From contig JAYKKT010000040.1 of assembly GCA_036023115.1 (NCBI GenBank), forward strand, positions 5,233,501 to 5,297,500: a stretch of DNA of 64,000 nucleotides. The letters are read 5' to 3'. Of the stretch, positions 1,977 through 60,780 are shown in pieces (the first letter of the stretch is position 1; each line of letters begins with the position of its first letter). The translations under genes and the position numbers were made by a program. The stretch comes from Brasenia schreberi (lineage: Eukaryota > Streptophyta > Magnoliopsida > Nymphaeales > Cabombaceae). Below the pieces are notes generated by a model, which saw only the letters and a list, made by a program, of their open reading frames with translations, ran no database searches and was not told the origin of the DNA.

Positions 1977-4900
1977 CTGAAAATAAACTTCTCACATGAG
2001 AATCAACACTGCCTACATATGAACGCTTCAATTAGCATATTTCTCAAACATACCATATATACAAGACCCCCATACACCTGTGCTACTCGATCTTGGAGAC
2101 CAGCAACAATTCCAAGTTCTTTCTCCGCACTAAGAACTAAGTTCGGTCTGATCTCTACTTTGATCAAATGCCTGATTTTGTAGAAATCAAGCAAGCAATT
2201 CAATGCAGCACATACAATTGCACTAGAACCTGAAAGCCCTGTCTGGATGTTTGTTACAGTAAGTAATCCACACTTTTTTTCCATTTGATGGAAAGTAATA
2301 CACAGTCAAATACCATATATAATGCATGGTTAAGTCAAATTTTGAGAGTATGCACAGGATGCACTTCCGTTAATCTTTCTTTACTGACAGATTTTAAAAT
2401 TTGGAACAACTACAGCCATACAATGATGAAAATAAAGATTTCAGTTGTCATCTAAGAAAACCTAACCACCATAAACATGCAAGTGATTCTTTCTGTGAAG
2501 AAAACAGACACAGATGAGAAATGAAAAGATGCATTTGCGTGCCAAAATCTGTTAAGTTATGATAAATAATTTTATATTGAAAATGAACATCACCAGAAAG
2601 AACCAAAAAAAAGTTGCCCCTCAAGGTGTAACATTCTTGTACTGACACCACACATTGCTTTCACTAACCAAGGTGTGACAGTTTACTGCGTATCTTGTTA
2701 AAGACTTGCACAACTCTGTGTGCTTCTATAGGCCAAGATGTGAAACATGAACCCTTTTAGAGGGGTCCATCACCAAACAAATCAGTATTTTCTTCTTCGC
2801 CTTTGGTAACTCTTCACTAAAACCTATGGGGTAAACTTTCACAAGAGAACTCTGGGATAGGTAGGGGATGGAGGAAACCCAAAAGTTTTAATGCCTTGAA
2901 ACTGCTTTTTAAGCATGTGACGCAAGTGGTCACCTGTGTCTTATTCATGCACTTCATCCCATCCCCACTCGAATGTAAATTTAACCCAGCACTGGGTATA
3001 CTTGCTAGTCCTTCAAGGCCTGACATCTGGACATCATGAGTCACATCCCCGGGTACCTCAACTCCTAAAATTTCTGGAAATTGGGCTCAAAAGGATGGAA
3101 ATAGAGTAGAATCAGAGTTGAAGAGTGCAGAAGCCGTTCCAAATTCAAAGTTTTGGAATCAAGCACAGGCATGGTCAGGTTCAAATGAAGCCCAAAATAA
3201 GGTTTCACATATCACATTGTAGGTGGACAAGTATGCCAATATGTGTAAACAGAAAGTCCTTCAAGGAGATGCTTGGAATTATGTTGGTACACCTTGTGAT
3301 ATGTGGAATAATATGTTATACATATTAGGAAAGTGGCGAAAGATGTGTTAGTTAAATCTAAGGGAGGTGCACCGGCACAAAAAGAAGCTTAGTGGTGGAG
3401 TGAAGTAGTGCAAAATAAAATCAAGGCAAAAAAGACGTTACAAATTACATTATGCTAAGAAAACTAGTAAAACCTTAGAGGCTTAGTGGTGGAGTGAAGT
3501 AGTGCAAAATAAAATCAAGGCAAAAAAGACGTTACAAATTACATTATGCTAAGAAAACTAGTAAAACCTTAGAGGCTTATAAGAAAGCAAAAAAGGTCAT
3601 CAGTGAAGCAAAAACTAAAATTTTGGAGGATTTATATAAAAAAACTCAACTCAAAAGAGGGTGAAAGAGATATTTTTAGGATAGCTAAGGTTAGATATAC
3701 AAAAACTAAGGATCTTAATTTTGTTAGATGCATCAAATATGAGGATGACAAAATTCTAATAGCAAATGATGATATAAGAAATAGATGGAAACACTATTTT
3801 TATAAGTTTTTTAATGAAAATAAAGATGTTAGTATTAGCTTAAGAGAGTTAGTCAAATAAGAAAAGTATATAAACCACAATTTATACCAACATATTCAAA
3901 AGAATGAAGTCAAAGAGACTCTTAAACATATGAATGGTGGTAAATCGGTAGGACCAGACAATATTTCTATAAAAGTTTGGAAAATCTTAGGAGAAATATG
4001 AATCAGTTTGCTCATAAGACTATTTAATGAAATATGGAGAAACCAAAAGATACCCGAGGAACGGAGAGCGAGTACACTTATACCCATATATAAGAACAAG
4101 GGAGATATTAAGTATTGTGCAAATTATCGGGGTATCAAGTTAATGAGTCATACTATGAAATTATGAGAAAGAATTATCGAACATAGGTTAAGACAAGTAT
4201 CAAGTACAATAGAGAACCAATTTGGATTCATGCTAGGCTAATCTATTGTTGAAGCGATTTACCTTTTGAGACGTCTTATGGAACAATTTAGAGCAAAATA
4301 GAAAGACCTTCACATGATATTTATTGATCTAGAAAAAACATATGATAGAGTACCGAGGAAGGTTCTTTGGAGAACCTTGGAAAAAAAAGGTATCCCATTT
4401 ACATACATAAACCTAGTGTTGTCTGACGTGTATCATATCGCGTATCGCTGGGCTCCACGATACGGGCGTATCGTACTTTAATATTAAAAAAATACAAAAT
4501 TTATTTAAAAAATTAAGAAAAATTAGTAAAAATTCAAAAAAAAATCAAGAAAAATCTGGTAATTGCTTTAAATTCATATAATGCAAAGTTTAGTATAGAT
4601 TGAGCATTCAACATTGAATAATTACATCCAAATTTATATATTTTGAATAAAAAAATGAAATACATTTACATTTTACAAATTGTAATCAGGATCATCAATT
4701 AATTAATCTTGATCTTCTCCTTGCAGAAGATCCTCATCATCATTATAAGCAATACCTTTTGATTGGAAATCAAATTCTTCTCTCCTTAATACTGTTATTG
4801 CACTCCTTCCAAATTAATCCATGCAATGTCTTCTTCAGTTAAGAGGGCATTTTCTTCACTGTCTTCTATAATCCAGTCTTCTAATATATCAAAATTATCC

Positions 4901-7900
4901 AAACTTATTGGATCAAATTGGTTTTCTTGTCTATTTACATTTTTTAATTGCCTACAACAAAGAAAGATAAGCAATTAGTAAATAACATTAACAATTGAAG
5001 TCAAATAATTTATTGAATTGAACATTTAAGTACTAAGTAATACAACATTACCTTTCACGAAGGTGCATGTTACAACGAATAAAAACTAAATCATTCAGTC
5101 GCTTATGTTCAAACCTGTTGTGCTTTTTTGTATGGATGTGTTCTAAGACACTCCAATTCCTTTCACAACCAGTTGCACTACAGGTTTGACTCAAAACTTT
5201 GACTCCAAAATCCTTAAGGTTCAGACAATAAGTTCCAAACCTATTCCACCAAACATCTATAGAAAAAGACAAGATACATAATCCACAATAATATAAGACA
5301 AGTTGATTTAAGAAACTTAAATACGAAGATAAACAATTTACCTCGATGCATAGTAGTGCGGTTGCGAATTGCTATAGGCAAACCCATAAAGTGAAGAGCA
5401 TTATCATAGATCTCCATCTCTCGATATATAGCATCTGCTCTGCTCTCATCAGGTACTAATCTATCTATACAATCAATGATGCATGATTAACCTCACCGTC
5501 CATTTTAAAGCTGGCTGAGTACTGAATGATGGGTTTAGATAATATGTTGCTGCAAGAATAGGCTGATGCAATTGTTTTTCCATCTATTATCAATAATTTT
5601 CATACGGGTACATAATCTCTCTTTTTTCCATTAAAATTATTTCTAATGGCTTCATAAAGGTAGCTCATAGATGGTTTCTCCTCGCTATCAGCCAATCTTA
5701 AAACCTTCACTAATGGACATGTAATCCTCAACAGTCTAACACATGTATTCCAAAATGTACTCTTGAAGACGGTCACAGAAATCTCATTCAACTTTTGGTT
5801 TCTTCTGTTCTCAGGCAACTCTTCAAATTATTGCCACTCATCTAAGGAGAACATTCTCTTCAATGCTTTCTTCTGTCTTATAATACTCTGCACAGATAAG
5901 AAGTTTGTTGCAAACCGAGTTGCAACTGTTCGAAGAAGCTATACACCTTCTGTATATCTCCTCATCATACACAAAACAAATGCATGGTTGTAAATGAATT
6001 TTGTGATATCTTAGCAACACTCAGTTGCTGCCTTTATATCATCTATCTCATCAATATCCTAAAGGATAAGATCTAAACGATGGGCTGCACATGGTGTCTA
6101 ATAGAAAGTTCCATAAGTATCAGCTAACTCATTCCCAACTGATTTGTAGTTAGCTGCATTATCTGTAATTAATTCGACTACATTCTCTAGCCCAACCTCG
6201 CATATCACCTTATCAGATTCTTGTCGTAGGATCTCCGCAGTATGCCTCTCCTCTGACATGTCTAGAGATCTAAAAAACATAAGTCTTTTAGGACAGTAGA
6301 TAAGAAAGTTTAGCAAGGCCCTTCCTCGCCTATCTGTTCATCCATCTGCCATGATAGTGCAACATGTCTCCTTCCATGACTCTCTCAAAGTCGAACAGTA
6401 TTCTTACACTTTAGTGACGGTCTTATCTAAGATCTTTCCTCTCAACTTCTGATAGGAGGGCATTTTATATCCTACACCAATGTTAGCAATTGCATCTGTC
6501 ATTGCTTGAAAATGAAAATTGTTTAATGCATTGAATGGAATGCATGCATCATAAAACCATCTGCCCACTGCAAGGTCTGCCTAATCATGCAATTGTTCTG
6601 AAGCCATAACAACACGAATTCTAGGTTTAGCACCAGGTGTAGTGGTAAGAGGAAAAAATGAATGTATGCTAGAAGCAGCTCTTCCTCTACTCCTTCTTGA
6701 ACTTCCTCTTTTACCACCTCCAAAGTCTTTAGCAACCCTCTTTCCCCTGCTAGGTGATCGTGAACTGGTACTACCTATAGTTTTCATGCATCAAATCATG
6801 ATTAGTAAGATCAATGGACATTCATAAGGGAAATGAACAGACTCGAGACTGCAGTCACCCCTTTTTCTCTGGCCGCCAGTCCCTGCTGCTCCTTTTTATT
6901 AATCCATCTCATTACAAAATGGTAACCCTAATCAATATTTATACTAAGTACTGTTTTAACTTAAAAGACGATAATACCCCTACTTAAAGTACACGGTTCC
7001 TAATGAATCCAATCTGATTCATTAGGACCCAGACTTCTTAACTATTATATAATAAACTCAACAAACACAAAATCTACTACATCTACTTGAAGACGAGACT
7101 TGAACTTCCAATACGCCCCCTCAAGTGGAGTCTTGAAGCTTACTTTTCCAAGATATTAGGTTACCACAAAAAGGAACACACGATACACTGATGTAGAACG
7201 TCCTCGAATGGAGAACACGCCCAATGCTGCATCTGTGTATCCTACAATCTAACCTACAATGTCTAGCTGTCTTCATACAATAGGCCTTTTTCCAGGAGCC
7301 ACTTTGACATATCTAAGAACTCTAATAGCTGCGTCATCCCAATGTCCTTCACATGGTGAGTCGAGAAATTGACTAAGGATGCTCATAGCAAAGGATATAT
7401 CTGGCCGGAGTAACAGTCAAATGCAATTTAATCGGACGATCAACTCCGATATTTGGCTAGGATCGATAATAGTTCTCCTTGATCGACGGGCTGAGTTTGG
7501 CATTTGGGATCCATCGGTGTATCTATTGGCCTAGAATCCAACATCGACGATTTCCTTGAGAATGTCTAATGCATACTTTCTAGTTGTGAGATACAAATCC
7601 ACCGTTAGATTGTGCCACTTACTTCTATTCCTAGGAAATATTTCAACCTTCCAAGGTCCTTAGTGTCGAGAAATGATCAAATAGGTGTTGTTTTAACTTC
7701 TGACACCTTCTTGATCATCTCCTGATGATAACAATATCATCGACATAAACAATCATGATATATGGAAGTTCCGGAGGAGGAATGATGATAGAAAGCTGAG
7801 TGATCGCCTCACTTCCTTGACCGCAAACCACAAACTCAAGCAATGATCTTGCATCGAATCTTCCAAACCAAGCTCGGGAGACTATTTCAAGCCATATAAT

Positions 7901-10900
7901 GATTTGCGCATAAACGACAGACGAGCCGGACTCCCCCGAGGCAACAAATCTCGGAGGTTGCTCCATGTACCCTCTTCTTGGAGATCACCATGTAAGAATG
8001 CATTCTTAACGTGGTATTGCGGGGGCCGGTGATGAGAGGCAGGCCCAACGAGATGAATATGCGAGAACGAGAGGCCAATTTGGCCACGGGAGAAAAAGGT
8101 TTGAGTAATCAACACCATAAGTTTAAACGCAACCCTTGGCCACAGTAGGAGCCTTTAAACGAACAACGGTACCATCGGATTGACTTTAACGGTGAACACA
8201 CTTGCACCCAATGGCACGCTTACGGATGGAAGGAAACGAGATCTCGCGTCTGGTTATGTTCCAAGCAAGCATTTCTCCTCCATGGCATGGCACCACCCAT
8301 CATGAGCCGGAGCCTCGGCAACATTTTTCGGAATGAAAGTAGTATCAGTATTCATTGCGAAGATCTGGTATTCAAGGGGATAGTTGGAGTAGGATACAAA
8401 TTTCTGCAATGAGTATTGAGCTACTCCCTTTTTTCCTTTTCAAATTGCAATCGGAAGATCAGTATTTGAATTATTGGAGGTTACCTGAATTGTAGATGAG
8501 TCTGAGCTGGAGTGACTGCCTAGGTCTGGTAAGAACACCTCTCTATTACCTCTGGAATACACTTGCCAGTTTTTATTCTGAGTAGGTATAATCTCTTCAT
8601 CTTCCCTCTCATGCTGCACCTGATTTTCTGTTGGAGGAATAGGTAACACATTTGAAGCATCTGTTACAGACGATGAATCTTCCTGAAAATTATAAAACGG
8701 TATATCCTCATAGAACGTAACATCCATAGTAACATATAATTTTCTGCTGCTAGGATCATAACACTTGTAACTTTTCTGAGTAGAGGAATATCTCACAAAG
8801 ATGCATCTTCTTGATCGTGCATCTAATTTGTCTTTAAGACCATGATGAAGGTGAATAAAACAGGTGCATCCAAAAATTTGCGGAAGTAAATGAAATTGCT
8901 TTTGACGGGGCACAATAAGTGAAAGGGAGTATTACCATCGAGGACTCTGCTTGGCATGTGGTTTATGAGAAAGACTGCTGTTAACACTGCTTCACCCCAA
9001 TAGTATTTAGGAGCATTACATCCAATCAATAAGGTTCTAGCTACTTCCAGAATATGTCTGTTCTTTCTTTCAGAAATCTCATTCTGTTGAGGAGAATATG
9101 CACATGAAGTCTGATATAGTATCCCGTGTTCTAAGAAGTATGTATGAAGTGATGTGGACATAAATTCTCCACCATTATCACTGCGAAAGATTTTGATAAA
9201 ACTCTGGAATTGAGTACGTACAAATTTATAATAAATAGGTAGAATATTCTTTACTTCATCTCTAGTTTTCATGAGGTATATCATCGTAAATCTGGTGCAA
9301 TCATCTATGAAGGTTATAAAGTATTTAAAACCATGCAGAGAAGTAGTAGCACAAGGTCCCCAAATATCAGAATGAATAATTTCAAACGGAACTGATGATT
9401 TTTGTTCATTCAAAGGAAAAGAAGCACGATGATGTTTTGCCTTCTGGCAAGTCTCACAATTTAAATTCAAATTATTACATAAACTGAATTCAGGCAATAA
9501 TATTCTAATTTTAGATAAAGGCAAGTGTCCCAATCGTTGATGCCAGCGAGATATAGCTCTTTGTTTCTCTGTGATGCTGATAGACTGCATAGCTGCTCCA
9601 TTCTTTTCTTCATAGATGTAGAGACCTCTCCTTGCACTACCCTGACCATAGATCTTCCGCGTCCTTAGGTCTTGAAATACACATCCAGTAAAATAAAAAA
9701 TTATTCGACATTTCAGATCTTGGGATAAGGCAGAGACTGATAATAAATTAACTGATAGACTGGGAACATGTAAAACATTCTTTAGTACACCAATAGAAGT
9801 AATAATATTTCCTTTTCCCATTATAGGAGAATGTGATCCATTTGCCAAACGGATGTTGACTCGTTCTTGAATCTCCTCGTAACTATCAAACAGTTCCTTC
9901 CTACTGACCATATGATCAGTAGCTCCAGAATCAATAACCCATATCTGAGAGTAAAGAGTCTTTGAATTACCTTTGACCAAGAATGAAAAAGGATAAGCCA
10001 TAGTAGCCTGAGCTTCATTGCTGGAAGATGTAGATGGAGTTTGTGAATCAGCTAATCGGGCCTTGAGTAAATCTCCTTCTTCATGTCTGCTAGAGAATTT
10101 GTAGGGTCTTGAGTGGTTTGTTTGTCAGTCTTATCACTTATAAAATACGCATTGTTCGATATGTTTTGAAATTGAGGAGGTCTTCCAACTAATTCCCAGC
10201 ATGTCTCCTTTGTGTGTCGGGTTTTACCACAGTGAGAGCATGTTAATTTTGCTCGTTCATCAGAAATAGGTACAAATCTGCCTCTACCACGACCATATCC
10301 TCTTCTGCCATGGAAAAAAGACGAATTTGATGAGTTCCTTCCAACGAATGCAGTTGTATCAGTATTGATTTTTGTCTCCTTTTCCAAGTGTTTTCTGTCT
10401 TCTTCTCGAAGTAGAAGTGAGTAGACTGTGCTTAAAGCTGGTAGTTCTTCTCTGCTCAAAATATTATTTTTTACTGCTTCATACTCGGAAGAGATACCCC
10501 ATAAAAGATCAAATACCTTTCTTTCTTCAAGTTCTTCATTCCTCTCTTGGGTACACTTTTGACACTTGGTTTTGGTATAAAGTTGTAGCTCTTCCCAGAA
10601 ACCACGGAGTTATGCATAATATTCACTAACTGATCTGTTTTCTTGTCTGCATCTTCTAATCTTTTCAATAATATCATATTTCTTGGCTACGTTTTTCCTT
10701 TGGGCATACGCATCATGCACTGCTAACCAAATGTTTCGAGCAGTCTCTAGAAACATAAAGGTGCTGGCAATTGATGGAGACATAGACTGGAGGAGCCAGA
10801 CACTCACTAGTGCATTCTCTTTACGCCACTTGGTGTACAAAGAATCATTTTCTGAAGGTGGAACTGCATCGCCAGTCAGATACTCCTAGCGCCCCTTGGC

Positions 10901-17166: not shown

Positions 17167-17783
17167 CACACCATACTATCTTAATATCTAGGTGTTTTCA
17201 AACAACCGATTACGGTTTGGTTTTAAGTTCAGTTTTATAAAAGATAAAACTGGAACCAAACCGGGTCATCCGCAGTTTCACCAGTTTTGGTTCTGGTTGG
17301 AACCACTGGACTAGTTCAGAATGACTGTCTTCACACACATATCCATCTCCATTATTCATCCAGATAAAAAAGTACTATTTACTTTTTTGTATTTGGTATT
17401 TAAATACTTTTAAATTTTAAATTTTATTGTTAATCATGAAGATCAAATAGTGAATATGTTTAAATGGATGGTTGTGCACATTGGATTGTGCTCTCCCTCT
17501 CTCTCTCTTATATATATATATAAAGCAACGTCATACATGTTAACATGCCAGGATAGAGTATGATGAAATTCATTGTCCATCATCACATTATATGCTATTA
17601 TTTAACAAGCAACACCAGAAAGGAGAAAAGGAGAACACGCAATGGCAGCTAACACATGGTGTTGGCCATACACTCCAGCTAGTAGCTGTTATTGATCACC
17701 ACACAGAGTTTTAGTTTATTACACTATTGATAGCTATTGTAGTTCGATAGATCTGCACTTGGTATGGAAAGGATCAAGTGGGC

Positions 17784-23104
<5,321 letters not shown>

Positions 23105-23254
23105 TCCGATCAATCTGGTCTTCGTCTGCTTTTTTTTAATGTTTTTTAATTGGTGGGGTACAAGGAAAATGGTTGATTAACATAGCATTTTTTTTGTTTT
23201 TTTTTGGGAATTTATATTTTTTTGGGAAATCTAGAAGAGGAATCTGATAGGTGG

Positions 23255-23800
23255 TAAGAGTGAAGTTACATGATTCGATCGTTTTTTATAAAGTTTTTGC
23301 TATAAGAAATCTTCAATCATGTAAAAAGGATCTTACTGTATATATTCCTCTGCTAGACGATTTAACTTTTTTTTTTCTTTTTTGGAGGTGATAATTAAAA
23401 AAAACTTAGAGGCTAATTACATGATTTGTAGGTTTTTATAAAGTTTTCACTAAGGAATATGAAGAGAACAAAAATCCAGGTTAAATACCAAAAGATAAAG
23501 GGTTTCTCAATACATGCAATACTGAAGAAACAAGAAACTTTTTTTGGAGTATTTTCTTCAAAGATGATGATCGAAGCTGAAGTCCTAATTACATGATTCA
23601 GAGGCGTTTATAAAGGTTTTGCTAAGGAGCAACTAAAAGGAAGACAGCCAGCTTTAAACTATTAAGTACCCCAAATAGTAAGTTTTTCAAAATATAGAAA
23701 ATGCCTTTTTTCTATTTTTTTGTCAAAATAAAAGTTTAAATATCGAAATTACATACTGGGTAGGCTTTTCTAAAGTTTTCACTAAGGAATAGAGGCTTGA
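23255..23800 (-). promoter_or_regulatory. Four-unit AUG-UAA (AUG-stop) repeat array in the NIP-A leader
   Basis: On the transcribed strand ATGTAA occurs at 23271-23266, 23422-23417, 23594-23589 and 23754-23749, spaced 151, 172 and 160 nt. Each is the end of a conserved block of about 40 nt, on the minus strand roughly CTTAGTGAAAACTTTATAAA, then a variable stretch, then ATCATGTAA, so the array arose by tandem repetition. It lies between the TATA box (24071) and the start codon (23104). AUG-stop in the Arabidopsis NIP5;1 leader is known to stall ribosomes and trigger mRNA decay under high boron. That this array acts alike is inference, and a leader intron cannot be excluded. Confidence 0.65.
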
Positions 23801-24063
23801 AAACCCAGTTTCAGTAAGAAATAGTTCTTGTGTTTATCAACAAAGAACCAGAAGAACAAAGAGCAGGGAGAAGGAGAGCAGGGAGAAATTGGATGGATGA
23901 TACCGGCTTAATTACTTCAAGAGCACGAACAGATGAGCATCGTTTCAGCCGGAGGGGTCGGAATGCCCAAAGTCATGTATGCACGAACTGGAGATTCCGG
24001 ACACCGAAAAAGCAGGAGACTGTAAATCTAGAAGGAGAGGGAGAGTTGCCGCTGCAGTTTATG

Positions 24064-24071
24064 TATTTATA
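24064..24071 (-). promoter_or_regulatory. TATA box of NIP-A
   Basis: Minus strand CACTATAAATACATAAAC. It is conserved in unit B (33721-33714). It predicts transcription start near 24035 and an unspliced leader of about 930 nt. Confidence 0.6.
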
Positions 24072-24289
24072 GTGAAGAATGAAGGGAGGTAGGGAGAGTC
24101 AGTGACTCGCTTTTTGCAGAGTTGTATCTTTTTAAGAGTTTACTGTTAGTTTACCAAAATGTTTAGTTATTCAAAATTTTAAAATAATATCATGACATAT
24201 AACAAACTAGACTTCTATTCCCCTCCCCATAAAAAATTACTCAATTCTCAAAGCTGCCGCATGAGATAAATGAATATATCTAAATACTA

Positions 24290-25810: not shown

Positions 25811-26715
25811 CAATTATAATTGGAACCATGAGTTCGTATAGGATTGTGTACATAAGGTTTTATAAGTCAATAAAGCTAACTCGAGTAACTTTTAAATCCT
25901 TGTGAATTTTAGACAATACAAGAATCGACTGCATGTACCATTTTTTTTGGTTTGGTAACATATAAGAATATATAAGTCATAAAAGCTGAGTCATATTTTA
26001 AACCTTATACACCTAAATAGTTTATCACAAGTTCTTCATCCAATTTCTTTTCTCTCTATATATAAAATTCTATCAACCATGGATGCTATTTATTCATATT
26101 CATTATGCATAAATATGATAATATTATTTTTAATCTTTTTTTTTTAATTTAAAAAAATTAAAGTATACTCATATTATTAAAAAACAATAAATATTCATAA
26201 TAGACATAAAAAGAAAGAATATATAAATATACATAAAGAGAGAGGAGATATGATAATTTAAACTGGTAAAACTTAAAAGCAAAAGGCCAGACATGTCTCT
26301 TCAAATTATTTTAGGCAAGCTTGATTGAAGGGTTGAGTGTACTTAATTCAATTGCATGCTTTTTGGTGTTAACGTAATCATCTTTCCCTAAAGCAAATGG
26401 TTTTAAGTTCAGTTTTATAAAAGATAAAACTGGAACCAAACCAGGTCATCCGCTGTTTCACCAGTTTTGGGTTAAGCCTGCTCTTGACCTGGTTTGGTTC
26501 TGGTTGGAACCACAGGACTAGTTAAGAATGACTGTCTGTCTTCACACAAATATCCATCTCCATTATTCGTCTAGATAAGAAAAGTACTATTTACTTTTTT
26601 GTATTTGGTATTTAAATACTTTAAATTTAAATTTTATTGTTAATCATGCCGATCAAATAGTGAATATGTTTAAATGGATGCTTGTGCACATTGGACTGTG
26701 CTCTCTCTCTCTCTC

Positions 26716-26771
26716 TCTTATATATACACATATATATATACATACATATATATACATATATACATATATAT

Positions 26772-26815
<44 letters not shown>

Positions 26816-27115
26816 ACGTCATACATGTTAACATGCCAGGATAGAGTATGATGAAATTCATTGTCCATCATCACATTATATGCTATTATTTAACAAGAAA
26901 CACCAGAAAGGAGAAAAGGAGAACACGCAATATACATACATATATACATATACATATATATATATATATATACATACATACATATACATATATATATATA
27001 TACATATACATACATATATAATCTATATACATATACATATATGTATATGTATATAGATTATATATGTATGTATATGTATATATATATATATGTATATGTA
27101 TGTATGTATATATAT

Positions 27116-27191
<76 letters not shown>
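26716..27191. repeat. TA-rich arrays with a 78-bp perfect palindrome and duplicated flank
   Basis: (TA)n/(CATA)n arrays at 26716-26811 and 26935-27191 flank one copy of a 120-bp unique block. 27001-27078 is an exact inverted repeat centred at 27039/27040. Unit A has one short (TA)n here (17509-17522). Confidence 0.85.
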
Positions 27192-27197
<6 letters not shown>

Positions 27198-27312
27198 ACG
27201 TCATACATGTTAACATGCCAGGATAGAGTATGATGAAATTCATTGTCCATCATCACATTATATGCTATTATTTAACAAGCAACACCAGAAAGGAGAAAAG
27301 GAGAACACGCAA
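26811..27312. repeat. 120-bp block duplicated downstream of NIP-B
   Basis: The block aaagcaacgtcatacatg...gagaacacgcaa occurs at 26811-26932 and again at 27192-27312, with one base different (caagaaac versus caagcaac). Unit A has it once (17522-17642), in the form of the second copy. Confidence 0.92.
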
Positions 27313-27453
27313 TGGCAGCTAACACATAGTGTTGGCCATACACTCCAGCTAGTAGCTGTTATTGATCACCACACAGAGTTTTAGTTTATTACACTATTGA
27401 TGGCTATTGTAGTTTGATAGATCTGCACTTGGCATGGAAATGATCAAGTGGGC

Positions 27454-27649
27454 CTAACGGCGGATGCTTCGGACCTGGCGAGGTGGATCGACCTCATCGT
27501 CGCGAAGGCGGACGGTGGAGTAGGTGGCTGCGCCCAGCACGGCACCTATGGGCTGCGCAACCATGTAGAGCCAGATCCCTTTGTAGTTGCCTGCTGCTAT
27601 GGCTGGGCCCAGTGTCCTCACAGGGTTCATTGATCCACCGGTTCCCGGC
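27454..27649 (-). CDS. NIP: NIP copy B exon 4
   Basis: 196 nt ending RSIRR and TAG. The protein is identical to copy A. At least one silent change (GGG to GGC in LGP). Confidence 0.95.
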
Positions 27650-28780
27650 CTGTTATTCATGAAAAACAAGATATATTTATGGGACACAACTTAGACCATA
27701 TTCATCACCAACATATTCTAAGCAATCAAATAAAGTTTTCCTTGGAATCTAGTTTTGATGAAGGCTGAACCATAATTGCATGTGTTCATACTCTCTCTCA
27801 CACACACACATGCCGCGCATGGACACACACAAACACACATAATGCGTCTGTGCAAAGGGATCCAAGGAAACCATGTGGGTGTTGTTTGGTACCTAGTTAT
27901 CATTTATGATGGCATTTGAGAAACTATGTAGAAGGAACACAAGAAATGCGAACTAACCCAGCAATCAAGATGTTGAGCATCACAGTTGCACCCACCGCAA
28001 TTCCAGCCAACTCTCCAACCTGATCAATATTCCAATGTGCGCATCATATCATTAAAATAACACATATTAACATGTTAGATAAGAAGGAAAATATATGTTA
28101 ATCCGCACGAGTACTTTGGTCAAATGGTTCCATTATCAAAAGTAATGGACTCTTCGAGTGTACCAAGCAAAGAAAACAATTTGTGATTTAAGGTGGCATG
28201 AAGCACTAATTGGCTTCTTTCTTTTCATTTGTTGGTGTCCATGAATAATGGATGCTTACCGCGCGCGTATCTGTGGCGACGGCAGTGACGACGAACATGA
28301 GGTTGAAGGTGATGATGAACTCAAGTAGAAACCCCTGCCAGTGGGAGACAGCAGGCACAGTGACTCCACCATGCATAAACGGGTGGAAGACTCCCTTGAG
28401 GAAGAAGGAGGCGCAAATGGAGCCAGAGACTTGAGCAGTGATATAGGCCGGCACCTGCATCCACGGGAAGTGGCGGAAGGAGGCGAAGCCCAGCGTTACA
28501 GCGGGGTTCAGGTGGGCGCCGGAGATGTGTCCGGTGGACAGTATGATGATCATAACGGCCAGCCCCGCCGATCCCGCATTGCCAATCAACGTCTCTGCAT
28601 GGTCATACTTCTCATTCACGATCGGCGCAGCAGTTGCAAAGAAGATGAGAAGGAATGTCCCTACAAACTCCGCACCTAGCTGCACTTGGGGAAGGAGAAG
28701 AAGGAAGAGCTTAACTACTATGAACAAACCATAAATCTTGATCTTTCCTTGTTAATTCTAATATGATACAAGAGGCAACG

Positions 28781-28845
<65 letters not shown>

Positions 28846-28970
28846 GTATATATGTATGTATATGTATATATATGTGTATATGTATATGTATATGTATATA
28901 TGTATATGTGTATATATATATATGTATATATATGTGTATATGTATATGTATATGTATATATGTATATGTG

Positions 28971-29035
<65 letters not shown>

Positions 29036-30219
29036 TGGTCACTGAATACAGATGTAGCCACAAGTTGAAGGTCATGACTTCAATAACCAAGCATGTATTT
29101 GGCTTCGGCATCTCGTTCTACTAAGAAAAAAAAATCGACACGACTCATCCATCTTAGTATGGGAAAAGACTTGGTTTGGTTTTTAGTTTGGTATTGTCTC
29201 CAACCAAACCCGCTCTAAATCTACATCAGATCCTAACACTTCTATCAGTTGCATTCTCAATTAATGATATTAGCCGAATCAACTCAAAATAATTTTGGAA
29301 TATTTCAGCCGGTATTTCGTATAATAACAACACAGTTGAGTTGTGTTTTGAAAAAGTTTTAAAAAAGGTGGCTAAATAACAATAACTCAACAATAGGGAG
29401 TTCTTTGTAATTAGTGATCAAAACGAACAACTTTCCCCTCAATTCTGAGAAATTTGGGAACTCCAAAGGTCTCGATAGGAATTTCCTACAATCATTTAAT
29501 AGACAAGGTAAATGGGCATTTCAGTCATTTCCATTTGCATAGCACAAGAATAGTAAGAAGAAGAAAATTTTAAAAACGTAATAAAATACATGAAAAGTTA
29601 AGAAAATTATAAGGGCAAATTGATCATGAAGCCGGAAATGACCGCCCACCCACTGTGATGCCTATTACAAGTAGATGGACGGCCGAAAGGAAAAGGATCG
29701 CTTCCTATCAAAGAGCGACAGTCCGATTTGGAAGTTTTAAACCATCATTTTCATTAGGGAAATACCAAATCAATGCTAACCATCACGATCCGAAGACATT
29801 CATCAGTTTCCTTTCAGTGAGATGCAATCCCACGGATAATTGGTAAGGATGAGTGGCCGGAATCGGATCGACACCGACATTCACCGAGTCCACCGTCGTC
29901 GTTCCACTGCCACCTGGTTAACATGGTGGAGAGGGTCTTTCGCTACTAGACAGAGACTGGAAAAATAGGTTTCTGTCCGTGGAGTTCGGATCTCTAATCC
30001 AAACCATTGACATCCGTGGAGTTCGGGTCATTGTATCGTTTGCCGGTCGTGGGATCCACATGGCTGCCTATACGACTTATTTCAATCAATATTACTTAAT
30101 CACAGAGCAGTTAAGGTTTTGATTAAAATATGAGACATGCATGTATGTGAAGTAGCAGTAAAGTTAAAGCATGCTGGTGTGCTTGCTTACACACACACAC
30201 ACACACGCACACACACACA

Positions 30220-30301
<82 letters not shown>

Positions 30302-30533
30302 TGATATATGTTAGCATGGTTAGGTACTGGTATAACTAAACATAAACAAATCTTAGCTATCAAATTTTGCAAGGTAGAGATTTAAATAAAAAAAATTATA
30401 AACATATTTTTACAAGTATATTTGATTCACAATCATATTCTTTTGTTTTTAAATTCAAATTTCAATAATTTATCTTTTAAATAAGATAATTGAGATTTGT
30501 TTGGATATGGTAGTACTTAAGATGCTAGCATAA

Positions 30534-30607
<74 letters not shown>

Positions 30608-32005
30608 TAATTTGGCTCCTAAATTTCTTAGTAGTTGGTACATGTTAACTCCACTGAATGAACCCTGAATTCTCTTGGCTGCTATCTTCAAATCATCAAT
30701 GTAAAAAAATAATAAATAAATCCTAAAAGGAATGCTCAAAGACGTCCTTTTAGGGTTTATAGCACCGGGAACCCATGGCTGAGCACAACTTGCTTGGCTT
30801 ACAAAGTTGTATGAACGCAATTTTTTAATGACAGAGCAGCTAGGGTCGAAATTAGCTATAGTTAATAAGTTGAATGTGCAGTTAACGCCATTTTTTCTTT
30901 CCGAAACAACAAAAGAAATATTTATAGATGTATTTTTTTAAAGCAAAAAGTAATAATTTATTTTTTGAGTGGGTGTACTCCTTTGTACTTTTTTATACCA
31001 GTTGAGGTATAAGTGTACGTCTACCAACCTATAATCCTACGCGTTTTGCTTAACTTTATATATGCTTGTGCGGAGGATAAAATGTACGTTTAATTGATAG
31101 TACCCCGGGGTTAGAAGATAATTACAATCAAATGAAAATTTTTGATAGGCATAAACTTTTGAATGATAAGATAGTGACCACTCGCAGAATTATAAGTTGA
31201 TCATTTTTTAACGGAATAATACGACACCAACAACAACAACCACACGGCACTCTGGCCACTCGGTTTTGTTATGATTTCACCTTTCATAAAACCAGAACTG
31301 ATCCAAAACCATCAATTCTAATAATTTTTAAGTTTTTAATTTTTTTTGTCAGTTTTTGGTGGCTTAGAACTCAGATCGGCAATGCCCCGAAACTGACGGT
31401 TCTGGAACCGGTCCTAGCCATTCAGGTTCTAGGGTAACCGGAACAGGTCATGTCTACTAGTAGTGTTGGCTAAATTGTTGAAGTCTTGGTTTTGATTATG
31501 AGTTGCTACCCCATGAATATGCTTTTTAAATTATTTGGAAAGTTAGTGGGCTTTCAAATGCATGAGTTTGGACGGCTAACATTAATCTAGATCGTAAAGT
31601 TTTGAACGACCATGATTTAATGTAGGATATCGACCATCATATGCCATATGACAAAATTCTTTCTTACACGGGTGAATGGAACAAAAGGGGGACTGTTGCT
31701 TGGTGAAACAGACAAGCCCACTCCAGTTGTTTCAGGTTGCATCAAATAAAAAATCTTAAATGGGGTTTCTTCATACATGGACGATGCACTCCTTAGAAGA
31801 ATTATTAAATGGGCTTCTTCCTAAAACAAGTAAAAAGTATAGTTATGGGTCATATATATATATATATGTTTATCTTATTATTCGGTATGAGTATAGTTTA
31901 AAAATTATTAAGAGTTTTGAAAGAAATATAAAAATAATATTACTATACTTATGCTCCTGGAAAAACAAAGATCAAATATGAGTAACATCTTCTGGATCCA
32001 ATCTC

Positions 32006-32090
<85 letters not shown>

Positions 32091-32731
32091 TCTTATAGTT
32101 AAGGGATTTACTTCCAGGAAACTTTCGAACCCACGACCCAAAGAATTGGCACACCATGTAAAAATGGATCAAAGCCGAACATTAATGCCTTCAACTTAAC
32201 ATACTTTAGGGTATATAAATGTTTTAGCAGAATGGAAGACTCGGCAAGCTCGCTCCAACAATCTTTTCTTACCAAAACCGACGCCCCACATTCCTCTTTT
32301 GTGGCAATCAAAGAGTGTTGATAATCTAGCAAAAGGTTTTCTTTTATTTTTAAAGAAAAGGTAGAAATGATGCAATGAATGACCATAAATTCTGCGATGC
32401 ATGCATCACCCTTCAGAAAAGTAATTCAGTTCCAAATTATACGCATCGTTGACTCATTGTGCGTGCGTGTGTGTGTATGTGTGTGTGTGTGAGAGAGAGA
32501 GGGACGGACCTTCTTAGTGAGAGAGACGGTGGGCTTGGGGAAGTCGGTGAAGCAGGTATGGTTGGGAGTCCATTGACCAACGGCGAAGCACTTGCAGTGA
32601 GGCATGGACTTCCGTTCATAGGACAGCGAATCCACCCGAATCGACGAGAACAAAGGTCCCCCTGGAGTCCCAGGAGTTTGCGGAGCCGAAGGTGCCGGCG
32701 TCACGTTCTCCAGTTCCGGCATTCTATCCAT
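27454..32731 (-). CDS. NIP: NIP5;1/NIP6;1-type aquaporin (boric acid channel), copy B
   Basis: Same four-exon structure and the same exon lengths as copy A: 32731-32510, 28679-28260, 28019-27958 and 27649-27454 (900 nt, 299 aa). All splice sites are kept and there are no stops. The protein differs from A at only four positions, all in exon 1: P7L, P18Q (next to the TPGTPG polarity motif), L28F and D39E. Exon 2 has four silent changes, exon 3 is identical and exon 4 differs silently. The NPA and NPV motifs and the pore Arg are unchanged. TATA box at 33721-33714, four AUG-UAA blocks at 33391-32895. I infer that both copies encode working channels and that selection or gene conversion has kept the pore identical. 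Confidence 0.95.
27958..28019 (-). CDS. NIP: NIP copy B exon 3
   Basis: 62 nt, identical in sequence to copy A exon 3. Donor GTTAGT. Confidence 0.93.
28260..28679 (-). CDS. NIP: NIP copy B exon 2
   Basis: 140 codons, amino-acid identical to copy A exon 2, with four silent differences that I can count. Donor GTAAGC. Confidence 0.95.
28782..29034. repeat. Large (TA)n/(TATG)n array at the NIP-B exon 2 side of intron 1
   Basis: (AT)n followed by two near-perfect tandem units of about 62 bp (tatgtatatatatgtgtata...gtgtatatatatatatg). Unit A has only about 45 bp here (19112-19143). Confidence 0.88.
30190..30604. repeat. Microsatellite-capped MITE, family 1, unit B copy
   Basis: (AC)n(TA)n(GA)n at 30190-30298, fold-back core 30299-30535, then (CT)n(AT)n to 30604. 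Both caps are longer than in unit A, and the core has gained about 45 bp (around 30425-30480). Confidence 0.7.
31255..31462. repeat. AACCGG-rich fold-back element, unit B remnant
   Basis: Matches 21555-21768 of unit A and keeps the right end aggtcatgtctac. The left part is lost by a deletion joining two ggcc sites. Confidence 0.6.
32010..32087. repeat. (TA)n microsatellite, NIP-B intron 1
   Basis: About 39 uninterrupted AT units. Confidence 0.9.
32510..32731 (-). CDS. NIP: NIP copy B exon 1
   Basis: [10 protein letters not shown] start at 32731, 74 codons, donor GTCCGTCC. Carries all four amino-acid differences from copy A. The following intron starts with only a short (CT)n(CA)n. Confidence 0.92.
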
Positions 32732-32889
32732 TCCGATCAATCTGGTCTTACTCTGCTTTTTTTTTTAATGTTTTTTAATTGGTGGGATACAAGGAAAATG
32801 GTTGATTAACATAGCATTTTTTGGTTTTTTTTTTGACAATTTATATTTTTTTGGGAAATCTAGAAGCGGAATCTGATAGGTGGTAAGAG

Positions 32890-33430
32890 TGAAGTTACAT
32901 GATTCGATCGTTTTTTATAAAGTTTTTGCTATAAGAAATCTTCAATCATGTAAAAAGGATCTTACTGTATATATTCCTCTGCTAGACGAATTTTCTTTTT
33001 TTTTTCCTTTTTTCTTTTTTGGAGATGATAATTAACAAAAACTTAGAGGCTAATTACATGATTTGTAGGTTTTTATAAAATTTTCACTAAGGAATATGAA
33101 GAGAACAAAAATCCAGGTTAAATACCAAAAAATAAAGGGTTTCTCAATACATGCAATACTGAAGAAACAAGAAACTTTTTTTGGAGTATTTTCTTCAAAG
33201 ATGATGATCGAAGCTGAAGTCCTAATTACATGATTCAGAGGCTTTTATAAAGGTTTTGCTAAGGAGCAACTAAAAGGAAGACAGCCAGCTTTAAACTATT
33301 AAGTACCCCAAATCGTAAGTTCTTCAAAATATAGAAAATGGTTTTTTTCTATTTTTTTGTCAAAATAAAAGTTTAAATATCGAAATTACATACTGGATAG
33401 GCTTTTCTAAAGTTTTCACTAAGGAATAGA
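32890..33430 (-). promoter_or_regulatory. Four-unit AUG-UAA repeat array in the NIP-B leader
   Basis: ATGTAA on the minus strand at 32900-32895, 33059-33054, 33231-33226 and 33391-33386 (spacing 159, 172, 160). All four, with their leading CTTAGTGAAAAC/TTTATAAA blocks, are kept after duplication, although the spacers have small changes such as poly-T length. Confidence 0.65.
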
Positions 33431-33713
33431 GGCTTGAAAACCCAGTTTCAGTAAGAAATAGTTCTTGTGTTTATCAACAGAGAACCAGAAGAACAAAGAG
33501 CAGGGAGAAGGAGAGCAGGGAGAAATTGGATGGATGATACCGGCCTAATTACTTCAAGAGCACGAACAGATGAGCATCGTTTCAGCCGGAGGGTTGTCGG
33601 AAAGTCGGAATGCCCAAAGTCATGTATGCACGAACTGGAGATTCCGGCCACTGAAAAAGCAGGAGACTGTAAATCTAGAAGGAGAGGGAGAGTTGCCCCT
33701 TCTGCAGTTTATG

Positions 33714-33721
33714 TATTTATA
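33714..33721 (-). promoter_or_regulatory. TATA box of NIP-B
   Basis: CACTATAAATACATAAAC on the minus strand, same as copy A, about 980 nt upstream of the start codon. Confidence 0.6.
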
Positions 33722-33914
33722 GTGAAGAATGAAGGGAGGTAGGGAGAGTCAGTGACTCGCTTTTTGCAGAGTTGGTATTTTTTTAAGAGTTTGCTGTTAG
33801 TTTACCAAAAAGTTTAGTTATTCAAAATTTTAAAATAATATCATCACATATAACAAACTAGACTTCTATTCCCCTCCCCATAAATGAATATGTCTAAATA
33901 CTACAAATATATAG

Positions 33915-36965: not shown

Positions 36966-38175
36966 AACTACAACAACTACGCCTTTTCTCATACTAGACG
37001 GGGTCGGTTACATGGATTCTTTGTTTCCACATATCCCTATCGTGTGCCATGCTAGCATCTAACTCACAATAAGCTAGATCATTCTTTATTGTTTCTTTCC
37101 AACACTTTTGTGGTCGTCCTCTAGATCTTTTAATACTTTCCAAATTTAGTTTTTCATACCTTCTTATAGGTTCTTCTTTTAATCTTCTTTCTATACGTCC
37201 AAACCATCTTAAAAGTTATTCTCATTTTATCCTCTATTGGTGGCACTCCTAATTTGTTTCTAATAACCTAATTATGTATACGGTCTTTTCTTATATGTCC
37301 ACTCATCCATCTCAACATCTTCATTTCTGTCACAGACATCTTTTGTACATGTTGATGATTAACTGCCCAACACTCAGAACCATAAAACATGGCAGGCCTA
37401 ATTGCTGCTCTATAATATTTATCTTTTAACTTTAACGGTATCTTCTTTTCATAAAGAATACCTGATGCTCCTCTCCATTTTAAGTAACCAACAATAATTT
37501 TATGCGTAACATCTCCATCAATTCTTCCATCGCTCTGAAAAATTGACCCTAGGTATTTAAAACTTTTCTTTTGGGGGATACAATGTGTGCCAATTTTAAT
37601 TTTTATGTCCTCTGAGATAACCAAATGATCAAATTTACATTCCATATATTCTGTCTTTGTTCTACTAAGTCGGAAGCCTTTGCTTTGTAATGTTTCTCTC
37701 CATAGTTCCAATTTTCTATTAACTTTTTCCTTAAACTCCTCCACTAATACAATATCATCTGCAAATAACGTACACCAAGGTACTTCATCTTGAATATGTT
37801 TTGTTAACTCATCAATCACCCTTATAAATAAGTATGGACTTAAAGTTGATCCTTGATGTAACCCAATATTAACTTCAAAGAAGTCTGTCATTCCTTCATG
37901 AGTCCTCACACATGTTTTTGCACCATAATATATGTCTCTTATAAGGTTAATGAATGTCAATGGGATACCTCTTTTTTCCAAAATTCTCCAAAGAACCTCA
38001 CTCGACACTCTATCATAAGCTTTTTCTAGATCAATAAATATCATGTCAAGGTCTTTTTTTTTTGCTCTAAAATGTTCCATAATACGTCTCAAAAGATGAA
38101 TCGGTAGATCTGCCTGGCATGAATCCAAATTGATTCTCTGTTGTACTTATACTTGTATTAAGCTATGTTTGATAT
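36966..38175 (-). mobile_element. RTE LINE, 5'-truncated
   Basis: Minus strand. The 3' tail is the acaacaactacgcc end at 36966. The open frame 38128-37268 contains the RT core: [32 protein letters not shown], catalytic FADDIVL (YADD-like), RLSRTKTEYMEC and the C-terminal [38 protein letters not shown]. Homology with the full copy stops near 38175, so the endonuclease is lost. Plant RTE elements encode one ORF of about 1,000 residues. Confidence 0.88.
37268..38128 (-). pseudogene. RTE reverse transcriptase fragment, 286-codon open frame
   Basis: RT palm with the catalytic FADD box near residue 125 and the downstream RTE-specific region. Truncated at both ends by the loss of the 5' half and by a frame change after RWMSGHIRKDRI. 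The longest intact RT frame in the window. Confidence 0.85.
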
Positions 38176-46362: not shown

Positions 46363-46977
46363 TCAATCAATTCTTCCATCATTCTCAAAAATTGACCCTA
46401 GGTATTTAAAACTTTCTTTTTGGGGGATGCAATGTGTGTCAATTTTAATTTTTATGTCCTCTGAAGTAACTAAATGATCAAACTTACATTTCATATATTG
46501 TGTCTTTGTTCTACTAAGTCGTAAACCTTTACTTTCTAATGTTTCTCTCCATAGTTTCAATTTTCTATTAACTTTTTCTTTAGACTCCTCCACTAACACA
46601 ATGTCATTTGCAAATAACATACACCAAGATACTTCATCTTGAATATGTTTTGTTAACTCATCAATCACCATTATAAATAAGTATGGACTTAAAGTTGATC
46701 CTTGATGTAACCCAATATTAACTTCAAAGATGTCTGTAATTCCTTCATGAGTCCTCACACATGTTTTTGCACCATCGTACATGTCTCTTATAAGGTTTAT
46801 GTATGTAAATAAATTACCTTTTTTTTCCAAGGTTCTCCAAAGAACCTCCCTCGATACCCTATCGTAAGATTTTTCTAGATCAATAAATATCATGTAAAGG
46901 TCTTTCTTTTTTGCTTTAAAATGTTCCACAAGACGTCTCAAAAGGTGAATCATTTCAATAGTAGATCTGTATGACAT
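46363..46977 (-). pseudogene. RTE reverse transcriptase
   Basis: 204-codon open frame: [56 protein letters not shown]. The usual catalytic FADD reads FAND, an Asp-to-Asn-type loss at the active site, so the RT should be inactive. It ends at SIFENDGRID, followed by decayed 3' sequence. Confidence 0.85.
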
Positions 46978-47765
46978 GAATCCAAATTGGTTCTCCGTTG
47001 TACTCGATACTTATCTTAACCTACGTTCGATAATTCTTTCCCATAATTTCATAGTATGGCTTATTAACTTGATGCCTCAATAATTCGTACAATTCTGAAT
47101 GTCTCCCTTATTCTTATATATGGGTATAAGTGTACTCGCTTTGCATTCCTTGGGCATCTTTTGGTTTTTTCATATTTCATTAAATAATATTGTGAGCCAA
47201 GTGATTCCTTTTTCTTGTAGGATTTTTCAAACTTCTATAGGAATATTGTCTGGTCCTACCGATTTATCGCCCTTCATATGTTTAAGAAGCTCTTTGACTT
47301 CATTCTTTTAAATACGTCAGTAGAAATTGTGGCTTATATACTTTTATGATTTAACTAACCCCCCTAAACTAATACTAACAAGCTTATTTTCATTAAAAAG
47401 CTTATAAAATAGCCCTAACTCTTCATTCTTCATTCTTCATTCGTCTTTAATGCATCTAACAGAATTAAGATTTTTAGTTTTCTAATCTCTAGCACTAACT
47501 ATCCTAAAAATATCTCTTTCACCCTCTTTTGAGTTACGTTTTTTATATAAATCCTCTCAAATTTTAGCTTTTGCTTCACTAGCGATCTTTTTCGCTTCCT
47601 TCTTTGTTTTCTTATAAGTCTCTAAAGTTTCACTAGTTTTCTTAGCATAATGTAATTTATAATGTGCCCTCTTTGCCTTGATTTTATTTTACACTACTTT
47701 ACTCCACCACCAAGCTTCTTTTTGTGCCAGTACACCTCCCTTAGATTCACCTAACACATCTTTCG

Positions 47766-51639: not shown

Positions 51640-52140
51640 CTCTCTCAAGGGGATTCAACCGAAGCCTTTCAGCTTTTCTTAAAAAATATTTAAAAATAAA
51701 TCTTCACACCAAATATTCAACGGTCTCACGTTGAAGCTAATCTTAGCGAGCGGCAGATAAAGGAACAGCCCAGTGTGCCTGGTTTTCACCAAATAAAGGC
51801 ATTGTTTCCATCCCTAAACCGGGTGGAGCCAAGTTGGTGGGTGGCACCATGAGCCATCAGATCAACATGACCAACAAAATCGGGAGCCCACAAGCTCAAA
51901 ATGAGAAGGGGTTCAATTCAAATCTCACATACCCCAGATGAAAATCTTACCGAGATTAGTTGTTCACCGGAGCAGATGAAATATTTACTGTTATTGCAGC
52001 ACAAATCTCCCTGGCATTCTTCACTCTTCTTGGCAAAAGCCTCCTGTTAGATGGAGATTTCGTCCTTTTGTTTCTCCATCTCTCCTCTCACGTCACACTT
52101 GCATCAAGCTTGTGTGTGTGTGTGAGAGAGAGATGCTTAC
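51640..52140 (+). promoter_or_regulatory. Upstream region shared by the two CHX pseudogenes, copy 1
   Basis: Words such as taatcttagcgag, ccaaataaaggcattgtttc, catccctaaac, gtggcaccatgagccatcag and caaatctccctggcattctt recur in order at 59500-59900. The duplication therefore took the promoter with the coding part. Confidence 0.6.
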
Positions 52141-52334
52141 TTAGTGAACCAGAGGGTGATCAGCAATGGAACGTTTTATGGGGATAACCCACTGGAAGCG
52201 ATATTGCCTTTGTGGAGCGAAATCTCTCCCTCACACGTCGCACAGTTGCTGGTTGTCACTAGCCGCTCCCTCCAATTACTTCTCAAACCCTTCGTGGTCG
52301 CTAGATCTTCCATAGACATCATGGTATATATCCA

Positions 52335-52339
<5 letters not shown>

Positions 52340-52396
<57 letters not shown>
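52340..52396. repeat. (CT)n(CA)n microsatellite in the CHX-1 intron
   Basis: Begins 17 bp after the donor at 52324. Confidence 0.85.
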
Positions 52397-52584
52397 TATG
52401 TACAAACAAAAGAACACAATCACCAAGATCGTCCACAAACATAAAGTTCATGCATGAACATGGTGGTGCCGGAGAACATGCAGAGCCAAGTGGGTCCCTT
52501 CATCATTGGGTCATATATTGGCATGCCCCAGATCTCGGTGATAGCAAGCACACTGCTGCAGCACAAGGCCCTCGGCATAGAGAT

Positions 52585-59499: not shown

Positions 59500-59990
59500 C
59501 CTAAAAATTATTTTCTAAATAAAACTTCATTATACGCATTTGTCAAAAAAGCAGATTTCTGGTGTAGAGTTTCATCCGACTCAAGATAATCTTAGTGAGA
59601 ACAAGACAAATGACTAATGTGCCTGTCTTTCTTCAAATAAAGGTGTTGTTTTCATCCCTAAACTGGGGAAAAGTCAGAGCTTGTGGGTGGCTAACTGAGC
59701 CATCTTCATTAAACAACATGACCAAGAAAATCGAAAGCCTGCCAGCTCAAAATGAGCAAGGATTCAATTCAAACCCCACGTACTTCAGATGAAAATGTTA
59801 CAATTATTAGTTGTTTGACGACCGGATGAGATATTTACAGTTATTACAACTCCAATCTCCCTGGAACTCTTTACCCTTCTTGGGGAAGGTTCTCCTTATA
59901 TATTGAGATTTATTCCATCCTTTTGTCTCACCGTCTCTCTCATACCTGATCGCTTCAAGCTTCTGACGGAGAGAACTAGAGAGAGAGAGA
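59500..59990 (+). promoter_or_regulatory. Upstream region shared by the two CHX pseudogenes, copy 2
   Basis: Collinear with 51640-52140 (ataatcttagtgag, tcaaataaaggtgttgtttt, caatctccctggaactcttt). Ends in a short (GA)n directly before the ATG at 59992. Confidence 0.6.
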
Positions 59991-59991
59991 G

Positions 59992-60780
59992 ATGGGTTCC
60001 TTAGAAGAGCATAGTTGCTTTCTGAACCAAAATGTGATCATTAATGGAACGTGGTCTGGAGACAACCACTGGAAACGGCATTGCCTTTGTGGTGCACGCA
60101 GCTGCTCGTTGTCACCCTCACCAGCCGCACTTTGCAATTCTCAAACCCTTCATGGCTGCCCGAGCCTCAGTAGACATCATGATATATGCCTATGCTCTGT
60201 TGTGTGTGCGTTTGTGGGCATTGCCTTTGTTGTAGTGAGCATGGTTTTAGAAATCACACACCCGATGAGATTCAATATAACTCCTCCTACCTTATATACA
60301 GAATATAATCGCTTTGGCAATGTTTAAAACAAGCCCATTTAAGTATATGCACAAACTCATGGTGCCCAAGTCACTCTGCTTTCTTCTAATAATTGAATGA
60401 ATAATAATAGTGATGATCATCATCGCATACACAGACGAGCTTGATTCTTGGTCCCTCACTTTTGGGTCGTGTGGAGCCAAACGCGATGAGCACCCTCTTC
60501 CCCCCAGAAAGCCATGTGATTTTGTCAACAACCGGGAACTTTGGGTTGATATATTGATTCTTCTTCTTGGGGATTCAGTTAAATGTTGGTTCCATGACGA
60601 AGAGCATAGACAGGAAATCCATGGCGTTGGCTGTAGCGAGCCTTGCTTCCTCTTACATTTTTGCGTATGCCATCACTTTTGGGGTGAACATGGTGGTGCC
60701 GGAGAGCATGCAGACCCAGGTGGATCCCTTTATCATTGGGTCGTATATGGGCATGCCGGTGATGGCGGTACAAGGTTTGG
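59992..60780 (+). pseudogene. CHX: CHX-type cation/H+ exchanger pseudogene, copy 2
   Basis: ATG at 59992 (MGSLEEHSCFLNQN), then INGTWSGDN. A base is missing right after GDN (copy 1 keeps the following Pro), and a second frame change follows after RTLQF. The first exon ends SVDIM at 60181, where copy 1 has a GT donor but this copy has AT. The second exon from about 60433 reads SLILGPSLLGR (the CHX GPS-LGR signature), LFPPESHVILSTTGNFGLIY, an in-frame TGA at 60555, FFFLGIQLNVGSM, DRKSMALAVASLASSYIF and VDPFIIGSYMGMP. It is then cut off where the hAT at 60.8 kb starts. Four independent lesions make it a pseudogene. Confidence 0.8.

Follow-up and report, generated by a model that had tools for sequence, protein, structure and literature searches.

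Four AUG-stop elements in series in each leader of two tandem NIP5;1 genes: a candidate arrangement for tighter shut-off by boron

An AUG that is directly followed by a stop codon (AUG-stop) is the smallest possible upstream open reading frame (uORF), and in Arabidopsis it is responsive to a nutrient. According to the available passages of PMC12666852, the leader of Arabidopsis NIP5;1 carries two such AUG-stops. At high boron ribosomes stall at these sites, which leads to loss of translation and to mRNA decay, and a conserved region 12–19 nt upstream of the AUG-stop promotes decay but not stalling (PMC12666852 and PMC7503886, passages). A preliminary description of the 64-kb stretch of DNA analyzed here (the window) proposed that this unit has been multiplied to four in a single leader. 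A natural series of four units, present in two paralogues of a probably early-branching angiosperm, raises two questions: do threshold and range of the boron shut-off depend on copy number, and did repetition of the element precede the diversification of flowering plants? The reading that we consider probable is that two tandem NIP5;1 genes with leaders of ~0.95 kb each carry four boron-responsive AUG-stop elements in series, resulting in tighter shut-off.

ATGTAA occurs four times on the minus strand in the leader of the first gene (gene A), with 5’ bases at 23754, 23594, 23422 and 23271, i.e. at spacings of 160, 172 and 151 nt; positions and spacings given previously are exact to the base. 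As likewise proposed, the array is located between a TATA box (24072–24064) and the ATG at 23104 of an intact channel gene. The idea of a single array holds for gene A, but a second array of four units escaped the preliminary description: it is located upstream of the tandem paralogue (gene B) with ATGTAA at 33391, 33231, 33059 and 32900. All 8 hexamers are identical and intact. When transcription is assumed to start 30 nt below the TATA box, the leader of gene A comprises ~936 nt. The elements are as follows:

24064–24072, minus strand: TATA box of gene A, CTATAAATA; same sequence in gene B
23105–24040, minus strand: leader of gene A as deduced from the assumed start 30 nt below the TATA box
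23749–23754, minus strand: AUG-stop 1 of gene A (ATGTAA); context CCCAGT, A at -3; TAGA at -18
23589–23594, minus strand: AUG-stop 2 of gene A; context TGAATC; TATA at -18
23417–23422, minus strand: AUG-stop 3 of gene A; context CAAATC; TATA at -18
23266–23271, minus strand: AUG-stop 4 of gene A; context CGAATC; TATA at -19
33714–33722, minus strand: TATA box of gene B
32732–33690, minus strand: leader of gene B as deduced from its TATA box
33386–33391, minus strand: AUG-stop 1 of gene B; TAGA at -18
33226–33231, minus strand: AUG-stop 2 of gene B
33054–33059, minus strand: AUG-stop 3 of gene B
32895–32900, minus strand: AUG-stop 4 of gene B

Each of the two leaders contains ten upstream AUGs, and none of the corresponding ORFs overlaps the main ORF. 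An A at position -3 is present at 4 of 4 AUG-stops in gene A, as compared to 2 of the 6 remaining upstream AUGs. Since the spacings of 151–172 nt by far exceed a ribosome footprint, each site could be occupied independently.

Comparison of the window with itself revealed the tandem duplication, consisting of gene A and the neighboring gene B (27454–32731), both of which are intact:

22883–23104, minus strand: exon 1 (coding) of gene A
18588–19007, minus strand: exon 2 of gene A
18287–18348, minus strand: exon 3 of gene A
17784–17979, minus strand: exon 4 of gene A, to the stop codon
32510–32731, minus strand: exon 1 (coding) of gene B
28260–28679, minus strand: exon 2 of gene B
27958–28019, minus strand: exon 3 of gene B
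27454–27649, minus strand: exon 4 of gene B, to the stop codon

Both proteins comprise 299 amino acids, match the MIP domain (PF00230; E 9.6e-55 in each case) and differ from each other by four residues, all of which are among the first 39. They share the N-terminal motif TPGTPGG; a TPG repeat at the N-terminus has been tied to polar localization of NIP5;1 (PMC8279314, passage). The tree was calculated from 22 rows (2 from the window, 13 NIP5 and 7 NIP6, without Amborella or Austrobaileyales), which were hand-picked from two lists of the best 120 matches. It places both proteins inside NIP5;1, separated from NIP6;1 with support of 100/100, and pairs them with NIP5-1 of Nymphaea colorata (100/99), to which identity is 82%; this pairing makes an early-branching angiosperm the probable host. 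The former designation as “NIP5;1/NIP6;1-type” can therefore be narrowed: NIP5;1 stands, while NIP6;1 identity is ruled out by the 100/100 split. The top-scoring match among those listed, a hypothetical protein of Brassica cretica (390 residues, 74% of the query), was not used. By sequence, genes A and B are NIP5;1 boric-acid channels with predicted transport activity. Tandem duplication of a boron transporter gene has a precedent in BOR1 of Cape Verde Arabidopsis (PMC13037888, passage). Minor features of the gene segments include a long GT/GA repeat (CT/CA on the gene strand) in intron 1 of gene A at about 22760–22872, which is far shorter in gene B, TA-rich microsatellites, likewise long, towards the two ends of the gene segment (26700–27200 and 28760–29080), and a 3’-flank segment at 26797–26931 with near-repeats at 17509–17643 and 27179–27313.

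Each AUG-stop lies at the end of a repeated block, which had been estimated at ~40 nt. The block is indeed present and sharply bounded, with a length of about 45 nt (-36 to +8), and the four copies in gene A, listed here as they were used for pairwise identity, are:

23746–23790, minus strand: repeat block 1 of gene A
23586–23630, minus strand: repeat block 2 of gene A
23414–23458, minus strand: repeat block 3 of gene A
23263–23307, minus strand: repeat block 4 of gene A

Their mean pairwise identity is 76%, as compared to 54% upon shuffling (maximum among 300 shuffles 60%), whereas the 45 nt flanking the blocks on either side are at chance level (53% vs 51% and 54% vs 53%, respectively). These sharp edges suggest either old duplicates that have retained the block while their flanks decayed, or a short element that was copied separately.

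Could the array have arisen by chance? Four or more ATGTAA hexamers were obtained in 1 of 20,000 dinucleotide shuffles of the deduced leader of gene A and in 5 of 20,000 for gene B; for four or more AUGs followed by any stop codon these numbers were 32 and 62 of 20,000, respectively. Across the 64-kb window ATGTAA is not enriched (75 observed vs 70 expected on both strands), and the minus strand holds one further cluster of four within 600 nt at 4399–4940, which lacks the block; no such cluster was found on the plus strand of the window. Because of the missing enrichment and this second cluster, the hexamer count alone is unconvincing. More specific is the pattern CTTTA[T/G]A followed by ATGTAA 13–17 nt further on, which occurs 7 times in the window, every time inside the two arrays; unit 3 of gene B is one base short of it. 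When leader A was shuffled 2,000 times, one shuffle contained the pattern once and none contained it twice. Chance was rejected as the origin of the array by context and not by count. A block pattern with fixed spacing and up to 3 mismatches had 2 matches in the window as compared to 0.92 expected, and caught unit 4 alone of each gene since spacing was fixed. When the block DNA pattern was compared with genome contigs (at least 80 matches, bacterial or archaeal by title) and with viral contigs (10), the matches were taken as chance.

The block contains, in addition to the AUG-stop, a TATA/TAGA motif further upstream. TATA starts 18 nt above the AUG in units 2 and 3 and 19 nt above it in unit 4, while TAGA is found at 18 nt in unit 1; TATAAA is present in 3 of 4 units. 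In Arabidopsis, UAUA is at -139 and AUGUAA at -122 according to the name of a construct, i.e. 17 nt apart, and decay or cleavage ends map 13–14 nt above AUGUAA (PMC11915504, passages). Since the block thus holds AUG-stop and TATA/TAGA at the place of the Arabidopsis decay element, it is reasonable to regard it as the boron element of Arabidopsis, present four times. Agreement in this additional feature, which has been described independently, provides the strongest evidence for the identity of the element and relies on the published position rather than on alignment. The proposed multiplication of the Arabidopsis unit is therefore supported by AUG-stop and motif position, but the units are not equivalent, as unit 1 has TAGA and folding is predicted for unit 4. 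They also differ in the STOP1-type motif GGNVS, which in Arabidopsis precedes the two AUG-stops by 60 and 52 nt, as far as the available text tells; this holds for Arabidopsis only and the motif is perhaps not defining. Within 80 nt upstream, GGNVS is present for unit 1 at -9 only and for unit 2 at -76, -49 and -36, and there is none within this distance for units 3 and 4.

Comparison of genes A and B provided information on how the leader has been kept. Leaders differ by 26 substitutions in 936 aligned bases, as compared to 188 in 3236 for intron 1 (512 bases unaligned, 129 in gaps; p = 1e-4 vs leader) and 75 in 837 for the upstream flank (140 unaligned, 81 in gaps; p = 2e-8 vs leader). Leader B carries four insertions with 23 bases in total, none of which is inside a block. 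The blocks are not better kept than the remaining leader (3/180 vs 23/756; p = 0.45), indicating that the leader is maintained as a whole, be it by selection or by gene conversion, and that the blocks are not singled out. Divergence between the two genes is patchy, ranging from about 1% to 18% per 250-nt step, and gene conversion may have taken place.

Folding predictions set unit 4 apart:

23266–23324, minus strand: predicted hairpin over unit 4 of gene A; TTACATGATT (23324–23315) pairs with AATCATGTAA (23275–23266)
32895–32953, minus strand: unit 4 hairpin of gene B; sequence identical to gene A
23300–23320, minus strand: uORF of 6 codons (MIEDFL, stop TAG), the start of which lies in the 5’ arm

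The 5’ arm TTACATGATT is the perfect complement of AATCATGTAA, which holds AUG-stop 4, and an inner helix is predicted to cover the TATA motif. For the 69-nt region a free energy of -11.4 kcal/mol was calculated (z -2.85), which was reached by 3 of 200 shuffles, whereas nothing unusual was seen in the corresponding regions of units 1–3 (z +1.07, +0.70 and -0.53, respectively). Shuffling of the spacers alone, with the blocks left unchanged, gave a perfect 10-nt complement at any site in 4 of 1000 leaders. The 5’ arm is complementary to unit 3 to the same degree. Upon folding of the whole leader, hexamer 4 has an unpaired probability of 0.03 in A and B, as compared to 0.61, 0.71 and 0.41 for hexamers 1–3 of gene A. 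Pairing of hexamer 4 may weaken initiation at this site, so that the hairpin, if real, may render unit 4 weak or gated, which counts against four equal checkpoints. As four units were tested, we regard the hairpin as a lead and not as a finding.

How might four units in series act? In the mechanism that we favor, stalling, decay and reinitiation are carried over from Arabidopsis. A scanning ribosome would reach AUG-stop 1, initiate and encounter the stop at the next codon. At low boron it would move on and could restart downstream; at high boron it would stay, and the upstream part of the block containing TATA would promote cleavage of the mRNA. With four checkpoints, the fraction of ribosomes that arrive at the channel ORF would drop approximately with passage per site raised to the fourth power, and a single stall could be enough to destroy the message. 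Compared with leaders that have one or two sites, shut-off would be expected to become tighter, to set in at lower boron and to span a wider range. A 2024 paper reportedly describes that the 80S ribosome migrates away from the AUG-stop and that, through eRF1, boric acid keeps it in place. As an illustration and not as evidence, we calculated a toy series model for 1, 2 and 4 sites. At 20% leak per site, the range is 5-, 25- and 625-fold, the half-point is at 1, 0.54 and 0.25 K and the 10–90% span is 81-, 57- and 36-fold, respectively; with a leak of 50% the changes are less pronounced (range 2, 4 and 16). We infer that transcription passes through all four sites, that these act serially and that, following the toy model, the response of a four-unit leader would be steeper or wider. 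The array itself is real, well-formed and duplicated and represents a known regulatory element, with a function that is presumed from homology.

A more elaborate version, which we regard as a long shot, is a gated four-step checkpoint, in which the open AUG-stops 1–3 would act serially, while AUG-stop 4 and its decay element would be locked in the hairpin. The 5’ arm, a copy of the AUG-stop in antisense, would also provide the start of the 6-codon ORF that ends within the hairpin. Ribosomes translating this ORF would unwind the stem, with termination 28 nt above AUG-stop 4, and consequently the upstream flow of ribosomes would decide whether AUG-stop 4 is exposed and seen. As the two leaders are nearly identical, cross-silencing of the tandem genes is conceivable: decay fragments of one gene might silence the other through the Argonaute route that has been reported in Arabidopsis.

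Several points speak against four equivalent units in series, namely TAGA in unit 1, the predicted pairing of hexamer 4 and the lack of GGNVS above units 3 and 4, and gene conversion could account for part of the similarity between A and B. The inequality of the units would fit a simpler scenario, in which one or two AUG-stops work as in Arabidopsis, where two are sufficient (PMC12666852, passages), while the others are weak, masked or relics and the boron response is ordinary. We consider this rather unlikely, because all eight hexamers are intact, all four sites of gene A have A at -3, and the blocks have been kept while their flanks are at chance. Far less credible still is a neutral repeat or chance cluster devoid of any regulatory role, for which the cluster at 4399–4940 could be cited; the rarity of such arrays among the shuffles, the identity of the blocks, their retention in two paralogues and the placement in a NIP5;1 leader make this explanation barely tenable.

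The remaining alternatives concern the transcript. A leader intron or alternative acceptors could leave the mature mRNA with fewer AUG-stops or none at all and perhaps thereby set their number. The best acceptor-like site in the leader of gene A (3.71 at 23521) scores inside the range of the gene’s own acceptors (-0.27, 3.69 and 4.38), units 1–3 open with the pyrimidine-rich CCTTAG and a donor-like GTATGT overlaps unit 1. However, the best donor in the leader reaches 1.75, as compared to 1.3, 3.0 and 4.8 for the gene’s own donors (all scores from a consensus scan), and Arabidopsis constructs amplified from genomic DNA have a 5’-UTR that is numbered continuously from -558 (PMC9208793, passage). 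The scan neither revealed a leader intron nor spoke clearly against one, and we regard removal by splicing as improbable. The block might also act as DNA: as it holds the TATA-like stretch CTTTATAAA, alternative promoters are possible, and the choice of start would set the number of AUG-stops per message. In agreement with this idea, TATAAA recurs in three units and GRO-seq peaks are present over both Arabidopsis AUGUAA sites, but the authors interpret the latter as pausing (PMC11915504, passages). Moreover, unit 1 has TTTAGAAAA instead, the TATA box above all units is kept in both genes and the similarity of the blocks extends through ATGTAA, which makes a promoter function very improbable.

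Serial action of the four AUG-stops, which remains our preferred reading, can be compared with known systems as far as the accessible passages of the respective papers describe them. The likeness to Arabidopsis NIP5;1 includes the gene family, the AUGUAA hexamer, a UAUA-type motif 17–19 nt upstream and a long leader. In contrast to the two sites there, both tandem genes have four, unit 4 is located in a predicted hairpin and units 3 and 4 have no upstream GGNVS. NIP5;1 leaders of Brassica napus likewise contain conserved short uORFs or AUG-stops; the passages mention two conserved uORFs in BnaA3.NIP5;1 and a minimum ORF in 6 of 6 BnaNIP5 promoters, but report no array (PMC8279314; PMC6852077). 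In rice, the leader of the NIP5;1 orthologue OsNIP3;1/DTE1 confers a boron response in protoplasts (PMC12666852, passage). Hoxa11 also combines a start-stop with RNA structure, but there a very stable downstream stem stalls the 80S ribosome, unlike the modest AU-rich hairpin around the last AUG-stop here (PMC8172242, passage). We found no NIP5;1 leader with more than two AUG-stops in the literature as represented by titles, abstract openings and passages, with Tanaka 2011 and 2016 outside this scope. Four AUG-stops in series, kept in two paralogues, represent a new form of a known control, and it is possible that the number four has been described earlier.

Elsewhere in the window, the minus strand carries retrotransposon ORFs in several frames at 8440–10885, which we take to be of the copia type; one of these (8823–10124) contains Pol_BBD, GAG-pre-integrase and integrase core domains. 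Reverse transcriptase fragments (RVT_1) are present on the minus strand at 37268–38146 and 46363–47010, with related copies elsewhere in the window. The segments at 51734–52527 and 59583–60757 form a similar pair with 68% and 90% identity in two pieces, and three ORFs tested from them had no Pfam match. Finally, an ORF at 2003–2305 on the minus strand matches the N-terminal domain of GHMP kinases (E 4.5e-07).
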